In this document: positions 21,884 through 31,355 of the stretch, one piece after another
Layout: each line of letters begins with the position of its first letter
Numbering within the stretch: position 1 is the stretch's first letter
Source: Tessaracoccus timonensis
Lineage (GTDB): Bacteria > Actinomycetota > Actinomycetes > Propionibacteriales > Propionibacteriaceae
Direction: 5' to 3'
NCBI RefSeq assembly: GCF_900343145.1
Contig: NZ_LT996886.1
Span: 310,001 to 374,000, forward strand
Length of the DNA stretch: 64,000 nt
Made by a program: the position numbers and the translations under genes
Notes under the pieces: model-generated
Told to the model about the DNA's origin: nothing
Seen by the model: the letters and a program-made list of their open reading frames with translations, nothing else
Databases searched by the model: none

Positions 21884-24800
21884 TCAGCTCACCATGTGGT
21901 TGATGGTGGCCAGCACCTCGCTTACCACCGACCTCGGCACCGCCGACCATGGCACGTGGCGCATCCCGGAGAAGAAGTCGAGTCTCGACTTACGCCTCGG
22001 GTCCACACCGTAGTCAAGGATGCCCGGATCCTTTTCGCCTGCGAGAAGGTAGGCGCACTCGAAGGCCTGGTCCTCCTGCTCGGCGGGCGAACCGCCCACC
22101 CACATGCCGGGGTCGAACTGGATCACGGCGGTGACGTCTGCGGCATGGAAGTACTTGCCGTACAACACGTACACGCCCGCGTCGAGGGGTTCACCTCGAA
22201 CCCAGTCAAATTTCGAGAATCCGCCAATGAGCTTGCCTGCGGGGAACGCTCCTTCTGGTAGGCCGTGGAGCAGCAGATCGTCTCCCTGGTTTGGGGGCAG
22301 CGTGAACACCTGCCTGGAGAGCTGCGGGAAGGCCTCCACCAGCTCGTAGTCGGCTTGCACCGACGCCCAGCTGGAGCGCTCCGTTTCCGAGAGATCCACC
22401 GGATGCACAATGCCGAGCGTTCGCCCGTCGAGCGACACGGGTTCGTCGTCGATGTCCACGAGCTGCCCGTCCTCGTCGATGCGCCCCAGCGCGACGCGGC
22501 TGTCACCGTCGTAGATGCTCCACACCACCGACGACAACAGCCCGCGCAGCAGCGGGTGCGGCGCGAGGTAGGTTTCGAAATCGGCTGCTTCCCAACGTCG
22601 GCCTGAAATCATCGCGTTCTCGAAGCGCTTGTTCTGGATCTTCGCCAGCCCGGTGACCGTCTTCTTCAGCGCCGTGAACTCCGCCTTCGCCTCCTCAGCG
22701 AGTTGCGCATCATCGGACTGATTGGGCTTCGGCAACGCGGTGCGGGGCTTGCCGGTGGGGCGCCCGTCGTCGCCGATGAGACGCACCACCACCTTGCACT
22801 CGGGAGTCACACTGGCCAGGAACCGCCTCGCCCCGAAACTGAACTCGCGCGTACCGCGCTCGTCGAGACCGCCGTCGGGGATAATGCGATCTTCCAGCTG
22901 GTCGCGGGTGAAACCCATCTGCCCCGCGATCTCGTTCATCGCTTCGCCAGCGCGCTTCTTGATGGCCGCATATTTCACCTTGGCGGCGATACCCGCAATC
23001 GCTTGCAAAGCCACGTCGGAGCCGACGTTGCGCAACGCCGTCAACCCATGCACCGCACGCTTGTGCTGCGAGATGCCCGGCCACTCCCGGATCATCGGCG
23101 TCAGATGGTGCACGAACCCATCGCTGGCGATGCAGCCCGCACCCGTCATGAGCCACTTCTCCTTCGACGGGGCCCCGTTCGCCAGCCACAGGTCCAGCAA
23201 AGCGACGGCGAAGGCGTCGCGGTGACGTACGGAGGCGTGCTCCCGCAGTGCTGCCAAGAGCGGCTGGTCGCGGTCATCGGCCTGCATCGCCCCGATGACG
23301 AACCGCACCTCTTCCTCGCCCAGCTTTGCGCCGTCGACGACGATCGGGGGCAGCCCTGCAACGTTCAGGTATTTGGGAAGCGGCTTCGGCCTGGCGACGG
23401 CGTCCACCGCGTCCTGCCACCACGGGGTCGACGGGTCGAACGCGCTCAGGGAGGATTCCTCGAGCACTTCCTGAGCCACCTGGCGCACACCGCCGGAGGT
23501 CTGCTCGACGATGCGTTGCAGCTGCTCAGTGGGCAGGGGGCGTAGCAGTCGAGCGATACCGGCGGCCTGCTGCACGCTGAGGTCGGCTGCGAGCACCTGT
23601 GCCAGGTGAGATTCCAGCCATTGCTCAGCAGCAGCAGCGTGCCGGGTCTTGGCGATCTCAAGGAACAGTGGCACTGCGGCAGGCCCGTGCAGCCTGGCAG
23701 TGAGGAGCCGCAGCGAGGCGTCCGCAGCGTCCTTGTCAATCTTGCCGAGGTCTGAGGCGAGCTTCGAGAAACCGAGCGGCCCGACGTTGATCACCCACGC
23801 CAAGGCTTCATACCGGTAATAGCCAAGGTGGACGCCTAGGCGTTTGGCGTGCTGGAGCCGCTCCTCAGGCGTGGCGTACAGCAACGGCAACATAGCGGTG
23901 TCAATGTACGGCCGGCCACACGCACCAGATGGCAGCGCATCGAGGCTGGCCCGAATGTCGTCCTCTCGCCCGCCGAGCAGCCGGGCGAAGAACATCCGCA
24001 CTCCGACGGAGCCGCGCGGCTGACGCTGAGGGTTCACGAGTGGCTCTCGCAACGCGTCGGCAAGCTCTAGCTTCTCCGCTTCGGGGATGAACTTCCAGAT
24101 TGCGCGTAGCGCCAGCACCGTCGTGGCGTGTGCTTCGTCACGATCTAGCGCCCAAGAATCATACAGACCATGCAGATCGTCTTTGAGTTCCTTCGCGCAC
24201 TTCACCAGGGGCTGGTTGCCCGATGCCTGCGAGAGAATGAAGTGCAACCCCTCGGGCGGGATCCTGTTCGATGCCGGTTCCTGATAGGTGTTTGTACCCA
24301 GCGCTGCGTTAGGGTCGAAGAAGAACTCAGACCACCACGTGGCGCACTCGGCGCTGGGGTAACCGTCGAAGGGCTCGCCTGAGAGCTCCCAGTAGCTGGC
24401 GTACTTATTTGGGTCTCGCACCCACTCGCATATCTGCTTGGCGCGAGCGGCAGCCTCGTCGGGGTTGAAGGGCGACGTGTCTTGCAGCTGCTCGAGATCA
24501 GCCGACAGATCCCAGCCGCGCTCCCACCAGAACAGCTCCAGACCGAGGTCTGTTGCATCGCCTGCCGGAGCGACGGGGGTTGCTGGGGCCTGGGCGCTCT
24601 CGGCGGGCTCCGGCGCGTTGCGTTTGGCGGTTGGCTTCGGCGCCGACGTGTCTGTGATCTCCGCCGACGGCGTGAGCGGGCCCTCGATGGGATCCTCCTC
24701 GTCGACGTATCCCTTCTTCAGCTTCGCGGCCACCTGCTTCTCTGCGTCGGCAAGGGCCTTCTCTTCGGAGGGGTAGGCCTTGGTCTTCGTCGTGCCGGCG

Positions 24801-24901
24801 GTGCCACGTCGACCGTAGACCACCGTGACCTGCTCCCCCATCTGATCGATGTACCAGAATTTATCCGAGGTACCTTCAGTGCATATCAGACGTCGCTGCA
24901 T
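21884..24901 (-). CDS. WGR and DUF4132 domain protein (YehI/MolR-like)
   Basis: The 1,005-residue soluble protein opens with a WGR domain (about 1-75: RRLICTEGTSDKFWYIDQMG, VVYGRRGTAGTTKTKAYPS), a nucleic-acid-binding fold also found in PARPs. A Pro/Ala linker leads to a long helical, HEAT-like middle (about 130-680). The C-terminal DUF4132 region (about 690-900) includes KIQNKRFENAMISGRRWEA and HPLLRGLLSSVVWSIYDGD. In E. coli, YehI and MolR share this build and lie beside AAA+/VWA/SWIM genes, as here. The biochemical function is unknown. It starts 35 bases after the SWIM gene and is the last member of the set. Confidence 0.88.
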   Translation of the reverse strand: MQRRLICTEGTSDKFWYIDQMGEQVTVVYGRRGTAGTTKTKAYPSEEKALADAEKQVAAKLKKGYVDEEDPIEGPLTPSAEITDTSAPKPTAKRNAPEPAESAQAPATPVAPAGDATDLGLELFWWERGWDLSADLEQLQDTSPFNPDEAAARAKQICEWVRDPNKYASYWELSGEPFDGYPSAECATWWSEFFFDPNAALGTNTYQEPASNRIPPEGLHFILSQASGNQPLVKCAKELKDDLHGLYDSWALDRDEAHATTVLALRAIWKFIPEAEKLELADALREPLVNPQRQPRGSVGVRMFFARLLGGREDDIRASLDALPSGACGRPYIDTAMLPLLYATPEERLQHAKRLGVHLGYYRYEALAWVINVGPLGFSKLASDLGKIDKDAADASLRLLTARLHGPAAVPLFLEIAKTRHAAAAEQWLESHLAQVLAADLSVQQAAGIARLLRPLPTEQLQRIVEQTSGGVRQVAQEVLEESSLSAFDPSTPWWQDAVDAVARPKPLPKYLNVAGLPPIVVDGAKLGEEEVRFVIGAMQADDRDQPLLAALREHASVRHRDAFAVALLDLWLANGAPSKEKWLMTGAGCIASDGFVHHLTPMIREWPGISQHKRAVHGLTALRNVGSDVALQAIAGIAAKVKYAAIKKRAGEAMNEIAGQMGFTRDQLEDRIIPDGGLDERGTREFSFGARRFLASVTPECKVVVRLIGDDGRPTGKPRTALPKPNQSDDAQLAEEAKAEFTALKKTVTGLAKIQNKRFENAMISGRRWEAADFETYLAPHPLLRGLLSSVVWSIYDGDSRVALGRIDEDGQLVDIDDEPVSLDGRTLGIVHPVDLSETERSSWASVQADYELVEAFPQLSRQVFTLPPNQGDDLLLHGLPEGAFPAGKLIGGFSKFDWVRGEPLDAGVYVLYGKYFHAADVTAVIQFDPGMWVGGSPAEQEDQAFECAYLLAGEKDPGILDYGVDPRRKSRLDFFSGMRHVPWSAVPRSVVSEVLATINHMVS

Positions 24902-24936
24902 GCTAAAAGCCTACGGCAGGGGCGGTGCAGCTGCGG

Positions 24937-26859
24937 TCACACCAGCGTCCGTCCGAACGCGCTCGCCAGGAGCAGCCGACGCAGTGCCTGCGCGTCGTGA
25001 CGTTCGGCGAGACCGGCGATGAGCGACGATCCGACGTCGCGGGCACGCCGGGTGAACTCGTCGAAGATCCGAGGATCGCGCTCCAGCCTGTCGAGCCCCG
25101 CGAGCAGGGCGATGCCCAACAACTCATTCAACGCCGCAAGGAGCGCTGCGGGGCTGGTGAGCGGGCGCTTCGTCGCATCGGAGGTTGGCACGTTCCAGCC
25201 GGGCACAGCGTCGGCGATCTGCGGCTGCAAGCTCCGGTTGCCGGCGCTCACGAGCGTCGGTTCCACGGTGACGCCCCCGCCGCCCCACCGCCACACGCCG
25301 GCGACGAAGCACTCGTCGAGCACGTCGGCGCCCACCACGTCGCACCACGCCGCGAGTGCGGAGGCACCGTCGGAACCGGCCCCGGCGGTGGCAAGCTGCA
25401 AGCGCGCGAGGGCGCCGTCGCAGTCCTCGAGCGAAGCGACGAATGCGGCGGTGACGGGATCGAACCCGAAGTCGACGATCCGGGTGCACCGCACCACGGC
25501 GAGCCCGGTGCCCGCTGCACGGTCGTCGAGGATGGCCGGCAGCCTCGTCTGCTGCTCGGCCAGGGCAGCCGGCGAATCAGCCAGGTACGGCGGAGACAAC
25601 TCCCCCAGCGCGGGAGCGGGCATGGGCGTGGCGCGACGACGGCCGGGCAGAAAGTTGCCCCACCCGTCGCGTTTCCCGCCTTGCACGAGCACCTGCCCGC
25701 CGCCCCATTGCGCGAGCGAGACGCTGCCGACCAGCCGCCGGGCAACCTCCGCCGGACTAGACGCATCATCCTCGACGCGCTTCCTCACCCGCATGGGTGC
25801 CCCACTCCGGGCATCGACGACGTGCGCGATCACCTCACGCCAGCCAGCGCCCTCCGTCACTTGGCAGCCGAGCCCTATAAGTTTGGCCCGCGATACCTCC
25901 ACCTCACGGGCGGCAGAGCCCGCGACGAGTCGGTCTGGGATGCGCTCCGCAAAGCCGCCTCGGAGGCTCTCGGCCCGCGCCAGCAGCTCACCGAGCAGCC
26001 TGACGAGCCTCGTCGGATCAAACTGCACGCTTCGCGACGCGTGACGTTCCTGTTCGTGCATCAGCTCGTCGACGAGTGCGGCCAGGTGAGGCATCTCCGC
26101 CTGTTGCAGTTGCGCACCGAGGCGCTGCCAGCCTGCCTGCAGCGCGCTCCCGCCAACCTCGACGCCCACCTGGAGCAGGGCGTCGATCTGCGCGACGATG
26201 CGCGTCAGCAGGGCTTCGTCGGGCTTCCATCCGTCGCCTGGGAGCTGACGCAGCCCGGTCTCGCCGAAGGGCGCACCCCGCGCGGCTTTGACGGCGAGCG
26301 CGACGTGGATGCATGGGTCGGGGTCGGCGCAGGTGCAGCGCACGTAGCGGAGATCGTCGCCAGCCAGGAAACGCACGGTCACCGCCACGGGGTGATGCAG
26401 TCGCACCACCGCGATGTCGTTGGTCACGCCCACCTGCGCGAGGAGCCCGTCGGCGACAAGCCCGCGCGCCTGCGTCTGGAGCCGTCCGAGTGCTGCGGCC
26501 AGGGCCTCGTCGGTGATGCTGCCGGGGTCGAACGGCGCAGTGGTGTCCGTCTCGGCTGAGTGAGGGCTCTCGTCGTGGTGCTGCGCGTGCGCCCAGCGCT
26601 GATAGACCAGCACCGCGCGCACCAGGTGCCTGCACTCAGCACCTGCCAGGCAGGTGCACGGCCAGTCGCCGAACGGCTTGTTGGCCAACAGCTCGCAGCG
26701 GGTGCCGTCGTCGGCCGTCACGACGACGGTGCCGTCATCGCGCGCCTCGACCGTGTAGTCGAACCCATCCAGCTCTTTGAGCGCGCGCCGGACAGTGCCC
26801 TTGTTCGTGAGATCCACCAGCACGTTCTCGGTGAGCTGGAGCAAGTCGTCGCGGATCAT
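24937..26859 (-). CDS. Double SWIM zinc-finger protein (YehQ-like)
   Basis: The 640-residue protein has two SWIM zinc motifs of identical spacing, CxCx5CxH: C68-C70-C76-H78 (CTCLAGAECRH) and C175-C177-C183-H185 (CTCADPDPCIH). SWIM domains bind DNA or protein. The other ~450 residues form an alanine- and leucine-rich region without a motif I recognise. It overlaps the VWA gene upstream (ATGA) and precedes the WGR/DUF4132 gene. In E. coli the comparable gene is yehQ. The role is unknown, probably as a binding partner or effector of the MoxR-VWA pair. Confidence 0.88.
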   Translation of the reverse strand: MIRDDLLQLTENVLVDLTNKGTVRRALKELDGFDYTVEARDDGTVVVTADDGTRCELLANKPFGDWPCTCLAGAECRHLVRAVLVYQRWAHAQHHDESPHSAETDTTAPFDPGSITDEALAAALGRLQTQARGLVADGLLAQVGVTNDIAVVRLHHPVAVTVRFLAGDDLRYVRCTCADPDPCIHVALAVKAARGAPFGETGLRQLPGDGWKPDEALLTRIVAQIDALLQVGVEVGGSALQAGWQRLGAQLQQAEMPHLAALVDELMHEQERHASRSVQFDPTRLVRLLGELLARAESLRGGFAERIPDRLVAGSAAREVEVSRAKLIGLGCQVTEGAGWREVIAHVVDARSGAPMRVRKRVEDDASSPAEVARRLVGSVSLAQWGGGQVLVQGGKRDGWGNFLPGRRRATPMPAPALGELSPPYLADSPAALAEQQTRLPAILDDRAAGTGLAVVRCTRIVDFGFDPVTAAFVASLEDCDGALARLQLATAGAGSDGASALAAWCDVVGADVLDECFVAGVWRWGGGGVTVEPTLVSAGNRSLQPQIADAVPGWNVPTSDATKRPLTSPAALLAALNELLGIALLAGLDRLERDPRIFDEFTRRARDVGSSLIAGLAERHDAQALRRLLLASAFGRTLV

Positions 26860-27950
26860 CGCATGGCCTCCCCCACCCAGGCTGCTAGCTCGAACGGCGT
26901 CATCACGCCCACGTGCGCGCCGAGCTCCGCGAGCTCCCGGCCGAGCGTTGTGTCGTAGCTCGCCATGCCCGACGCATCGAGCGCGCCGAGGATGAGCACC
27001 CGCGCGCCCTCACTGACGAGCCTGCGCACCGCTGCCTTGAGCTGGAACACGGAGCCGCCCTCGTACAGGTCGGTCACGACCACCACCATCGCCCGCCGCG
27101 GGGTGTCGACGAGCTGCTCGGCGTAGCGCACGGCTCGGTGAATGTCGGTGCCGCCGCCCAGCTGCACCTGCATGAGCGTCTCTACGGGGTCGATCACTTC
27201 GCTGCTGAGATCCACCACCTCGGTGTCAAACGCGAGAAGGTGGCTGCGCAGCGCCGGTATGCCGTGGAAGATCGACGCGGTCACCGCCGAGTGGATCACG
27301 GAGTCCAGCATGGAGCCCGACTGGTCGACCGCGATGATGATCTGCCAGCGCTCCGAATGACGCTTCGTGCGCGACACGAACACCGGATCGGCGATGACGA
27401 GTTTGCCGAGCTCCGGCGACCAGCGTTTGAAGTTGGCGCGGATCGTCGCCACCGGATCAAAGTTGGTGGCCACCTTGTGTCGGCTTCGACGATGCGGCTC
27501 CAGGCGGCCCGTCACCGCGCGGCGCACGTCGGTGGCGAAGAGCTCGACGAGTTGCTGCACCACCTTGCGCACAATCTGTTTCGCTGCGGCGAGCACTTCC
27601 TGGTTCATGAGGTGCTTCGTCGAGAGCACCGCCTTCAGCAGGGTCTCGGAGGGCTCGATGCGCTCCAGCACCTCCGGGTCGGTCACCAGCTCGCTCAGCC
27701 CATAGCGCTCCAGCGCGTCGGTCTGGATGCGTTCCTGCACCGCCCGCGGGAACAGCTCGCTGATTTCGTTGATCCAGGTTGGCACTGTGAGCTGCGACGG
27801 CCCGTCGCCGCCCAGGAGATCCACGGTCTCCCTGTCGTAGAGGAAATCCAGCGACGCCGCGCGGCGGGCGTCGACCCCCGACAGCTCGCCGAGTTTCTCG
27901 GATCCGTCCCCCAGAATGAGCCGCCAACGGACGGCGCGTGCGTCGCTCAC
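26856..27950 (-). CDS. VWA domain protein with intact MIDAS (YehP-like)
   Basis: The 364-residue cytosolic protein has an unassigned helical N-terminal half and a von Willebrand A domain from about residue 200. The metal site is complete: DQSGS (D209, S211, S213), GGGTD (T268) and VTDLYEGG (D294). VWA proteins paired with MoxR ATPases act as metal-dependent adaptors that bring the ATPase to a target. It overlaps both neighbours by ATGA. The corresponding E. coli gene is yehP. Confidence 0.9.
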   Translation of the reverse strand: MSDARAVRWRLILGDGSEKLGELSGVDARRAASLDFLYDRETVDLLGGDGPSQLTVPTWINEISELFPRAVQERIQTDALERYGLSELVTDPEVLERIEPSETLLKAVLSTKHLMNQEVLAAAKQIVRKVVQQLVELFATDVRRAVTGRLEPHRRSRHKVATNFDPVATIRANFKRWSPELGKLVIADPVFVSRTKRHSERWQIIIAVDQSGSMLDSVIHSAVTASIFHGIPALRSHLLAFDTEVVDLSSEVIDPVETLMQVQLGGGTDIHRAVRYAEQLVDTPRRAMVVVVTDLYEGGSVFQLKAAVRRLVSEGARVLILGALDASGMASYDTTLGRELAELGAHVGVMTPFELAAWVGEAMR

Positions 27951-30232
27951 CAGACCTCCTCGCCCAAGAAGCCGCGGACGTGGCCAAGCAGTGCCTGCTC
28001 GAAGCTGGCCACCGCCATCACGTCGTCGGAAGAGCCCTCGAAGCGCCGCAGTACATCATGGCCTTGCTCGCCCAGCAGCTGATTGGCGATCTGGGCGCGC
28101 TCGCGTGGCGGATACGCGGAGAAGGCACGACGCAGCCCCGGTAGCGCCGCGAGGAAATCGTCGTCGTCGAAGCTCGTCACCGCCGCGTCGAGAGCGCCCA
28201 CAAACTCGCTCCTGCGAGTGGCGGCTTCTCTCGCCACCGTGAGCAGCCCAAACACAAAGTCGCCCAACTCCGCTGGGTTCGCCAGCAGCGTGATCGACGT
28301 GGCGAGGGCCTCGCCGTCCTCCCCATCGAGTAGCCACTGGGCGCCGGTGCCGGCGCCACGCAGCGCCGCTGCCTGGTCTGGCGAGTCGCTGATGTGATGC
28401 AACGCTCGTCGCCATGCTGCGCGCGCCAACGGCAAGTCCTGGCAGCGTTCGATGACGTCAACCCCGCTGCGGATGGCCGCTCCGACGGGGTCCGTCGACG
28501 GCGCATCGGGCAGCGCCCCAACGCGTTCCACGAGCATGGCGAGGCGTTCGAAGGCGACGGTGATGAGCGCACCGAGATCGGCCCGTCCGGTGGTCTGCCA
28601 CAGTGCGTCGTAGCGGTAGAGGCGCAGTAGTGAACGCAGCGCGTCGCCGAGTCCGCCGATGTTGCCGGTGGTGGCGAACAGGGTCTCGGTGCGGGCTTGC
28701 AGTGCCCTGCCGAGGTCGTCCACTCCACACAGTGCCGCGCGGAGCATGAGTTCCGCGGCGGCGCGAGGATCGTCGACGATGTCCACGGCGTCGGCGAGTA
28801 ACCGCGTCGTCACAGCCTCGTCGCGGGTGCCGCCGAATCTGGAAGCTTCGACGAGCGAGCTCTCATATTCGGGGGTCCACCACAGCCGCCAGTGCTCCAC
28901 GCCGTCGGCATCCGCGCTGCGCACCAGGGCGCCGACCCGCACATCCAGTGCCACGAGACTGTGGAGCAGCCTGGAGCTGCGAAGGCCGTCGTCGCTCGTG
29001 AGGTCCACCTTCGCGACGCGCTCCTTCGGATGAGGAGTGAGCCCCAGGGCCTCCAAGTCGGCGACGAATTCCACCACCAGCGGCGGGCGACGCGTGCCGG
29101 GCGCGAGCTGACCCACCCGGTTGCCGCGCAGAATCTCGTGCACCCTCGCGACGAGCGGGTGGGCGGCGCCGTCGTCGTCCTTCACCAGCGCGCTGATGAC
29201 TCCGTCGACGAGATCCGTGCGCCACACCTCACCGTGCCCGCGGAGCGCGGCGAGCGCCTGCGCGGTGGTGGAGACGGCAATGAGGTCGGCGACGGAGATC
29301 CGCTGCTTGGAGTCACGAAGCCCCTCGGCAATGTCCTTCAGCAGCCGCTCCGCGGTTCCCGTGCGCCCGGCACATCGGTCGGCGTGCAGTGCTTCGTAGA
29401 ATCCGGGGTTGCGCTGGCCGGCGTCGTAGCCGGTGAGCGCGTCGAGGGCGGCGTACGACGTCGGGGTGAGCGCGACGCCGTAGCGTTCGTCGTCGGGCGA
29501 TTCCCAGCGGGCAACGGGCTCAAATCCGGCGGTCAGGCAGTGCCGCAGCCCCGAGATGTGCGCCGCGCCGCACACGACGAGCACCGTCCCCGACGTGCGT
29601 TCCCCGGTCTCGCGGATGCGGGAGGCCATGTAGCGCTCGCGCTGGCGGTTCTCGTCGCTGTCGCTTCGCAACATTTCTCCGAGGCGTTCGATCCGGGCGC
29701 GGTAGTCGTCCATGCCGAGTTCGGAATCGAGCTCCAAGAGCTCGTCGATGAGGGCATCGACGTCGTCGACGCCCACTTCACGAAGCAGTGGTTCCAGCGC
29801 TGATTCCTGCAGTTTGGAGGGCTCCGCCAGTAGGTTCGCTGCGCTGGCGTGCTCGGCCCGCGCACTCCAGGGTAAATCGATGAACTCCAGCGCAATGCCC
29901 CGCTCCTGCGCGGCGCGCACGGCCGCCCACTCGGGCGCGTAGGCGCTGAACGGATAGAACGCCCCGCGACGATCTGACCACTGCTCGCTGCCCGGTTCCG
30001 CGTGCGGGTGCATCGGCGCCCAGGTGTAGATCATCACGGGGAGCTTGTGTGGCAGCGCGAGCTCCTCCAGATACTTGTTGTACTCGCTCGGTCCTTCGAC
30101 GAGCACCGCCTCGACGTCGCCGGCGCGGATTCGCTCAGCGACGAGTCTCGCCCCGGCCGGCGAGTGGTGCCGAACCCCGAAGAACTCAACCTGATCGGCC
30201 ACGGTCAATCCAGCAGTTCGCGATGCACCCAC
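27947..30232 (-). CDS. DUF5682 family protein (YehM-like)
   Basis: The protein (761 residues if started at 30232) has the DUF5682 N-terminal signature VEFFGVRHHSPAGARLVAERI with a following VLVEGPSEYNKYL. Later it has CGAAHISGLRHC, suggesting a TIKI/EreA/GumN-like fold with conserved His and Glu residues. That fold assignment is inference. The rest is a long helical region. The start is uncertain: ATG 30232, TTG 30208 (overlapping the moxR stop) and GTG 30202 are all in frame and none has a convincing ribosome site. The position between MoxR and VWA matches E. coli yehM. Confidence 0.85.
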   Translation of the reverse strand: MGASRTAGLTVADQVEFFGVRHHSPAGARLVAERIRAGDVEAVLVEGPSEYNKYLEELALPHKLPVMIYTWAPMHPHAEPGSEQWSDRRGAFYPFSAYAPEWAAVRAAQERGIALEFIDLPWSARAEHASAANLLAEPSKLQESALEPLLREVGVDDVDALIDELLELDSELGMDDYRARIERLGEMLRSDSDENRQRERYMASRIRETGERTSGTVLVVCGAAHISGLRHCLTAGFEPVARWESPDDERYGVALTPTSYAALDALTGYDAGQRNPGFYEALHADRCAGRTGTAERLLKDIAEGLRDSKQRISVADLIAVSTTAQALAALRGHGEVWRTDLVDGVISALVKDDDGAAHPLVARVHEILRGNRVGQLAPGTRRPPLVVEFVADLEALGLTPHPKERVAKVDLTSDDGLRSSRLLHSLVALDVRVGALVRSADADGVEHWRLWWTPEYESSLVEASRFGGTRDEAVTTRLLADAVDIVDDPRAAAELMLRAALCGVDDLGRALQARTETLFATTGNIGGLGDALRSLLRLYRYDALWQTTGRADLGALITVAFERLAMLVERVGALPDAPSTDPVGAAIRSGVDVIERCQDLPLARAAWRRALHHISDSPDQAAALRGAGTGAQWLLDGEDGEALATSITLLANPAELGDFVFGLLTVAREAATRRSEFVGALDAAVTSFDDDDFLAALPGLRRAFSAYPPRERAQIANQLLGEQGHDVLRRFEGSSDDVMAVASFEQALLGHVRGFLGEEVW

Positions 30233-31290
30233 GCCTGGGCGCGAATCGGGTCCTTCGACCCCTGCATGCGTCGCTCGTAGTAGCCGCGCAGCCGCGAGCG
30301 ATCTTCGAGGTCGTCCTTCAACGCCGATCCGGCCAGCGCTGACGTGAGTTCCTTGCCTCCAGGTGTGCCGTCGCCGAACCAGGCCGCTTCCAAGCCTGCG
30401 GCGAGCCCCGTCGACACCGCCTCCGCCGTCGACATCGCGCTGCTCAGTCGCTCGACGCCCTGGTCGCCTGCGCGCCCTGAGCGCAGCTCGCGAAACACCT
30501 CGACGATGACCCGCGTCAGGTCGCGCGGCAACCGGGCGGGGACTCCGGCATCCGCGAGCAGCGCGTCGGTTTCGCGCTGCACGAGCGCGGCCTCGACGTC
30601 GGCGTCGGGGATGGGGCCGATGGTCTCGAAGTTGAACCGTCGCTTCAATGCTGCGGACATCTCGTTGACGCCGCGGTCGCGGGTGTTGGCGGTGGCGATG
30701 ACGTTGAAACCGCGCAAGGCGTGCACGGTGCGGGCGTCACCGTCGAACTCGGGGATGGTGAGGACCCGGTCGGAGAGGAGGGAGAGCAGCGCGTCTTGCA
30801 CCTCGGGCGCGCAACGGGTGATCTCCTCAAAGCGCACCACCTTGCCCTCAGTCATGCCACGGTGGATGGGTGCGGGCACCAGGGCGCGCTGCGTCGGCCC
30901 CTCCGCCAGGAGTAGCGCGTAGTTCCACGAGTACTTAATGGCGTCCTCCGTGGTGGCGGCCGAGCCCTGCACGGTCAGCGACGTGTCGCCCGAGATCGCC
31001 GCAGCCAACAGCTCGCTGAGCAGCGACTTCGCTGTGCCCGGCTCACCGACGAGCATCAGGCCCCGGTTCGTCGCCAGTGCCACCACGCAGCGCTCCACCA
31101 GGGCCCTGGAGCCGACGAATTTCGGCGAGATCTCTGCACCGTCGCCCAGCACAAACTCCACAACCGCAGGAGCAGACAGGCGCCAGCCCTCAGGGGCAAC
31201 CCTGCCGAGTTCCGCGTCCCGCGTAGCGAGCGTCGCTAATTCATCAGCGAAGCGCACCTCGGCTGGCAGGCGTTGTATGCGTGCGGTCAT
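30205..31290 (-). CDS. MoxR-family AAA+ ATPase (YehL-like)
   Basis: The 361-residue ATPase has Walker A GEPGTAKS (82-89), Walker B VVRFEEI (about 151-157), sensor-1 in NVIATANTRDRG and a C-terminal lid. MoxR proteins work as hexameric chaperones with VWA partners to mature or activate other complexes, and the VWA partner is two genes downstream. It is the first gene of the five-gene set, and its stop overlaps the DUF5682 start region. In E. coli the equivalent is yehL. Confidence 0.92.
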   Translation of the reverse strand: MTARIQRLPAEVRFADELATLATRDAELGRVAPEGWRLSAPAVVEFVLGDGAEISPKFVGSRALVERCVVALATNRGLMLVGEPGTAKSLLSELLAAAISGDTSLTVQGSAATTEDAIKYSWNYALLLAEGPTQRALVPAPIHRGMTEGKVVRFEEITRCAPEVQDALLSLLSDRVLTIPEFDGDARTVHALRGFNVIATANTRDRGVNEMSAALKRRFNFETIGPIPDADVEAALVQRETDALLADAGVPARLPRDLTRVIVEVFRELRSGRAGDQGVERLSSAMSTAEAVSTGLAAGLEAAWFGDGTPGGKELTSALAGSALKDDLEDRSRLRGYYERRMQGSKDPIRAQAWVHRELLD

Positions 31291-31355
31291 GACGACCCCT
31301 TTCTCGACGACGCAACGAGCCTAGCTTCGCTGGCGTGCATCCGAAGGCAGCGTGA

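Follow-up and report, generated by a model that had tools for sequence, protein, structure and literature searches.

This analysis concerns an operon in a window of 64,000 nucleotides from Tessaracoccus timonensis (contig NZ_LT996886.1, positions 310,001 to 374,000 of the forward strand). According to the list of open reading frames (ORFs), the operon consists of five minus-strand genes in the order MoxR, DUF5682, VWA, SWIM and WGR-DUF4132 (Table 1). The genes are tightly packed: MoxR and DUF5682 overlap by 28 bases, DUF5682 and VWA by 4, VWA and SWIM by 4, and a 35-base spacer (24902-24936) precedes the WGR-DUF4132 gene. Coordinates, overlaps and spacer agree with those in an earlier note on this DNA. 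The host genome is a single contig of 2.759 Mb, in which DUF5682 and DUF4132 are each encoded once, in this operon; the VWA gene is the only VWA_CoxE gene above the cut-off, with two others scoring below it.

Table 1. Features of the five-gene operon and its upstream gap, with positions in the window.
Feature	Position	Strand	Basis or remark
MoxR AAA+ ATPase, YehL type, 361 amino acids	30205-31290	-	Pfam AAA_5, E 3.8e-36; proposed role as motor
DUF5682 protein, YehM homologue, 761 amino acids, GTG start	27947-30232	-	Pfam DUF5682, E 2.1e-100
Predicted TIKI/TraB-type domain of DUF5682, residues 7-238	29519-30214	-	H22/H23 at 30164-30169, E46 at 30095-30097; also R198, H225
C-terminal part of DUF5682, mostly helical, residues 290-761	27950-29365	-	AlphaFold2 secondary structure; structural matches listed are helical and helical-repeat proteins
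VWA (CoxE-type) protein, YehP homologue, 364 amino acids, complete metal ion-dependent adhesion site (MIDAS)	26856-27950	-	Pfam VWA_CoxE, E 1.5e-47
SWIM zinc-motif protein, YehQ homologue, 640 amino acids	24937-26859	-	blastp to YehQ, E 3.9e-26
First SWIM motif CxCx5CxH, residues 68-78	26626-26658	-	Kept in 36/37 rows
Second CxCx5CxH motif, residues 175-185	26305-26337	-	Two such motifs in 15/37 rows
WGR-DUF4132 protein, MolR/YehI homologue, 1005 amino acids	21884-24901	-	Pfam DUF4132, E 4e-37
WGR domain, residues 7-69, optional in family	24695-24883	-	Pfam WGR, E 4.4e-13
DUF4132 domain, residues 717-874	22280-22753	-	Pfam
Gap upstream of operon, 65 bases, after same-strand MptB-like gene	31291-31355	-	Two-mismatch LexA-like match at 31316-31329

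Each of the five proteins has a homologue in the E. coli yehL-yehM-yehP-yehQ cluster with yehI/molR, as the earlier note had proposed. In blastp comparisons, the MoxR protein is 54% identical to YehL over 345 amino acids, the DUF5682 protein 32% to YehM, the VWA protein 50% to YehP and the SWIM protein 25% to YehQ over 622 amino acids. The DUF4132 protein shares 30-36% identity with the E. coli MolR/YehI homologues, with 36% over 408 amino acids to the first of three tandem copies, which we take to be MolR. Among the MoxR subfamilies, the comparison on which the assignment to the YehL type is based was made with YehL only. Both clusters have the five families on one strand, with MoxR-DUF5682-VWA-SWIM as common order. 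However, the order is not the same throughout: in E. coli SK1144 DUF4132 comes first and in three tandem copies, whereas in the window it is single and last. Presumably, E. coli K-12 also carries the other parts of the cluster besides yehL. Of 5426 E. coli genomes, 5311 carry the cluster, 5155 of them with at least 80% of the query covered, and it occurs in filamentous actinomycetes as well. MoxR proteins occur widely among bacteria and archaea; YehL, carried by E. coli K-12, is one of their seven named subfamilies (PMC3893208). No function assigned to YehL was found in the literature examined.

Co-occurrence of the families was determined in a sample of 296 genomes of the phylum, in which DUF4132 and DUF5691 were counted only above the curated cut-off. 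DUF5682 was found in 21 genomes, DUF4132 in 14 and DUF5691 in 17. All 21 genomes with DUF5682 contain DUF4132 or DUF5691, compared to 2 of the 275 without it (Fisher 3e-30 by genome and 2e-17 by genus). Four genomes that lack DUF5682 and have only weaker matches (G121 for DUF4132; G049, G153 and G187 for DUF5691) were scored as negative. The 21 include every one of the 17 genomes with DUF5691 and 12 of the 14 with DUF4132. DUF4132 also has a life of its own, as in some genomes it is located far from DUF5682 or is present without it. The earlier note had named rare co-occurrence elsewhere as the result that would speak against a common system; the families were instead found to co-occur and to stay together.

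The core of the system is MoxR-DUF5682-VWA, and accessory sets define its subtypes. Gene order was studied in 120 DUF5682 loci (numbered with L), consisting of the best 80 of 531 relatives in named genome contigs, a set found by a peptide pattern including RHH that leans to close relatives, 26 regions of the phylum sample (of 33 places listed) and 14 from near kin. Home-made profiles with a limit of 30 bits served for their annotation. The loci are not independent, several coming from one genome. MoxR and VWA lie beside DUF5682 in 111 of these loci (74/80, 25/26 and 12/14 by set). Of the nine exceptions, seven stop at the end of a contig or region (L075, L076, L096, L128, L153, L162 and L163), while L089 and L098 do not. 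Subtype A, found in the window and in E. coli, adds DUF4132 and SWIM_A to the trio (45, 2 and 5 loci in the sets of 80, 26 and 14, the SWIM_A match being weak, 33-46 bits, in L152, L164 and L165). Subtype B adds DUF5691 and SWIM_B (24, 17 and 5 loci), in the order SWIM_B-DUF5691-MoxR-DUF5682-VWA, and is present in Deinococcus, Massilia, cyanobacteria and large actinomycete genomes of one genus. It resembles the window's system in that the core trio is joined by a SWIM protein and one more large protein. However, SWIM_B shares the zinc motif only, DUF5691 has no clear homology to DUF4132, and the subtype occupies a separate part of the DUF5682 tree. An all-against-all grouping of ORFs in 83 loci (L051-L133) returned the core genes, shadow ORFs over these genes, judged from example coordinates, and the subtype B pair in 27 loci; no other listed family occurs in more than 8.

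In a third subtype, DUF5682 and VWA are present in one open frame. This was seen in five loci (L151, L154, L155, L167 and L173; Pfam check of L154), and SWIM_B and DUF5691 share an open frame in five other loci. These fusions suggest two modules, i.e., a core of MoxR, DUF5682 and VWA and an accessory arm. The DUF5682-VWA fusions are located after MoxR, which is itself preceded in all five loci by a large protein of approximately 1,550-2,020 amino acids as an open frame (L154:2450-7522 and equivalents), for which no Pfam match was found in the two checked. In four of the five loci a short homologue of a DUF4132 protein precedes this large protein, and the fifth region begins inside the large gene; at three of these sites the DUF4132 profile matches.

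DUF5682 may be the enzyme of the complex, a possibility that the earlier note had not raised. The AlphaFold2 model of the protein has a mean predicted local distance difference test (pLDDT) score of 89.2 and a predicted template modelling score of 0.86, and its N-terminal domain is predicted to adopt a TIKI/TraB fold. Residues H22/H23, E46, R198 and H225 are conserved in 13/13 in a first comparison and in 39/40 loci retrieved without use of the RHH motif. The two His, the Glu and the Arg of the TIKI superfamily active site are found in the same order and with similar spacing in DUF5682 (PMC6254334). Against this likeness to the TIKI/TraB/EreA/ChaN superfamily, in predicted fold as well as in the pattern of His, Glu, Arg and His, stand several differences, namely the RHH first motif, a long helical C-terminus, coupling to an ATPase and the lack of a Pfam match of the protein to TIKI/TraB-type families. 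In a profile comparison TraB ranked best of 12 pairs, yet with only 17% probability. Moreover, the second Glu of an E-x-H first motif is absent, which weakens the idea of the same site as in RRSP, not that of the fold. TraB-type members may also be without this second Glu, and in DUF5682 E101 or E199 could replace it. No paper on DUF5682 or DUF5691 was found in the open-access literature, which leaves out most subscription journals. In L157-L159, which have the divergent order VWA-MoxR-DUF5682, the first motif is C-H-H instead of R-H-H.

Residues of the MoxR and VWA proteins are conserved as well. In MoxR, G82, K88, E155, E156, N202, R217 and R218 are invariant in 61/61 rows. All five metal residues that the earlier note had assigned to the VWA protein are indeed present and conserved: D209, S211 and S213 in 59/59 rows, T268 in 58/59 and D294 in 58/58. 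The SWIM protein of the window has no Pfam match; its E. coli homologue YehQ does score as SWIM. The WGR domain is an optional part: of 62 DUF4132 N-termini (the window's and those of 61 of 63 candidates), 27 contain it. Residues 520-1005 of the WGR-DUF4132 protein were modelled with a pLDDT of 90.5, with no clear fold match among the structural matches listed. DUF4132 genes also occur in tandem, up to three before MoxR (L060, L084, L116 and L174/L213), as if target-recognition parts diversify. Apparent split genes, with two ORFs in different frames, were seen for VWA in L084 (12304-13318), DUF5682 in L077 (6643-8951) and both in L114, due to either decay or sequencing error.

The suggestion in the earlier note of one ATP-driven complex is plausible, as the families co-occur, are kept together and parallel the E. 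coli cluster. We lean, tentatively and at a little under an even chance, to a machine in which a MoxR-VWA motor gates a TIKI-fold hydrolase, DUF5682, and an accessory arm picks the target. The model for the motor is NorQ, a MoxR ATPase whose pore receives the VWA finger of NorD and which, as has been proposed, twists this finger against the head of NorD (PMC13036017). By analogy, the MoxR ATPase would form a hexamer, engage the VWA protein and twist it with ATP as NorQ does NorD, and the VWA protein would hand the movement on to DUF5682, placed like the head of NorD. In the fused subtype, DUF5682 forms the part N-terminal to VWA and so takes the place of this head, which suggests that the simplest machine would be a MoxR ring moving a hydrolase head through VWA. 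NorQ-NorD thus shares with the window's system a MoxR ATPase and a VWA partner, with a head joined to the VWA part as in the fusions, but its description in PMC13036017 includes no TIKI-type head and its target is known. DUF5682 would most likely be a peptidase or esterase, and the putative active site (H22/H23, E46, R198 and H225) would be opened by the movement or fed a remodelled protein. SWIM and WGR-DUF4132 would make up the accessory arm, by which the target is selected or held, a role that would be taken by another SWIM protein and DUF5691, or by other proteins, in other lineages. Such an ATP-gated hydrolase would be unlike the tunnel-and-chamber AAA+ proteases and, if the enzyme is real, would represent a new way of coupling AAA+ power to hydrolysis. 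The predicted YehM active site names the residues to change, which makes the cluster of hitherto unexplained yeh genes testable. While YehL was already known as a MoxR subfamily, new here are the assignment to the TIKI fold, the division into subtypes, the fusions and the figures on co-occurrence.

Four types of MoxR-VWA ternary system, with VMAP, iSTAND, FtsH or beta-propeller, are listed in section 7 of PMC7159879. The window's system likewise combines MoxR, VWA and a third conserved protein, but this third protein is DUF5682, outside the four listed types. In a Pfam scan of the five window proteins no VMAP, iSTAND, FtsH or beta-propeller on VWA was found, and bpMoxR scored 24.2 bits, below the cut-off of 27. 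Variable effector domains and enrichment in multicellular bacteria are further traits of those conflict systems; the window's type of cluster occurs both in E. coli and in filamentous actinomycetes. A bolder and doubtful proposal is that YehL-type clusters are a fifth kind, in which the AAA+ ring would twist the VWA adaptor, opening a built-in TIKI-fold protease with exchangeable recognition arms.

Other functions have to be weighed against a gated hydrolase. It is possible but rather unlikely that the complex is an insertion chaperone, in which MoxR-VWA would open a target enzyme and DUF5682 would carry or place a metal or haem, by analogy with NorQ-NorD and CoxD-CoxE, which place metals, and with ChaN, which has the same fold and binds haem. 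The CoxE type of the VWA protein agrees with this, known MoxR-VWA pairs mature enzymes (PMC3893208; PMC13036017), and the conserved His and acidic residues of DUF5682 could bind metal. Moreover, yehM is among the genes mutated in copper-grown E. coli (PMC12409786), although this link is a list entry only, and no client enzyme recurs beside the loci: the 112 flanking ORFs of L054-L107 match 114 Pfam families, none in more than five. Among these flanking ORFs, a few match PADLOC models (a count given without baseline), which bears on the idea that the cluster is an anti-phage (biological conflict) system and would add another type to the MoxR-VWA ternary systems. This is very unlikely, even if a conflict function has been proposed for MoxR-VWA pairs that have a third component (PMC7159879), the cluster is patchy in the window's genus, relatives are found in plasmid records and DUF4132 copies are multiplied in tandem. 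The cluster is near-universal in E. coli and present in all 8 genomes seen of one sampled genus (g4), the five window proteins contain no known effector domains in Pfam, and PADLOC recognized only WGR_XIII in residues 2-98 of the 1005-amino-acid protein, plus one match of 30 residues with E 0.008. The terms SWIM, WGR, DUF5682, DUF4132 and yeh are absent from the main text of PMC7159879. There is thus little positive evidence for the conflict system that the earlier note had in mind.

Action on nucleic acid, also put forward there, rests on WGR and the SWIM motif, and WGR is optional. A DNA-damage machine, in which WGR-DUF4132 would sense broken DNA and the complex would remove or remodel proteins there, is very unlikely. 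In its favor, molR appears in lists of E. coli SOS genes (PMC3978071; PMC8533742), depletion of DdrO strongly induces a D. radiodurans operon that includes a DUF4132 gene, and in E. coli SK1144 a one-mismatch LexA-like site (L213:3963-3978) begins 25 bases before the first of the three tandem DUF4132 genes. However, a site of equal quality occurs in 8% of shuffled E. coli upstream regions, and none of nine class A Pseudomonadota loci tested has one within 250 bases. Single LexA-like sites were seen in ten loci and no group is enriched. Upstream of the window operon there is only the two-mismatch match and none without mismatch, with 66 two-mismatch matches in the window compared to 49.5 expected. 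Among the loci tested, only E. coli shows an SOS link, to which the DdrO-linked operon is a parallel from the literature. The nucleic-acid and defence readings are both weak, and a regulated step in protein quality or protein maturation seems more likely than defence.

The cluster looks like an old cellular machine, mostly inherited and at times lost or moved, rather than a young mobile defence unit. In a DUF5682 tree built from 92 of the 94 candidate rows, subtypes A and B separate and phyla are strongly clustered, the Actinomycetota needing 4 changes compared to a shuffled mean of 25.9; the window's nearest named row is Propioniciclava. DUF5682 is present in 12 of 25 genomes of the window's genus. 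In one of them, systems of subtypes A and B occur along with a fused one (L160, L166 and L167), so the subtypes can coexist. Ten ORFs from the window's flanks were looked for next to the A-type operons of congeners, and none was found there. In a plasmid collection 36 of 72,556 records match, several of those listed being 2-12 Mb in size and possibly chromosomes, and one unannotated phage-labelled scaffold matches as well. Taken together, the earlier view that its presence in distant phyla makes the unit a transferable one holds for some possible transfers and the plasmid copies, but is opposed by the phylum clustering.

The near flanks of the operon consist of an exonuclease III gene, tail to tail and ending 8 bases away, three tRNAs, a HadA-like gene and, upstream on the same strand, the MptB-like gene; no defence or mobile gene was found among the genes scanned. 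PHROGs families match DUF5682, VWA, SWIM and DUF4132 (phrog_30700, 31592, 29006 and 20839; window 21884-30232), indicating that some records filed as viral carry relatives. Lastly, the conjugative E. coli plasmid NZ_CP103756.1 (L052) contains a chromosome-like segment with yehI-yehL-M-P-Q homologues, btsSR and mlrA between IS26 copies, and this segment adjoins annotated beta-lactamase and other resistance genes.

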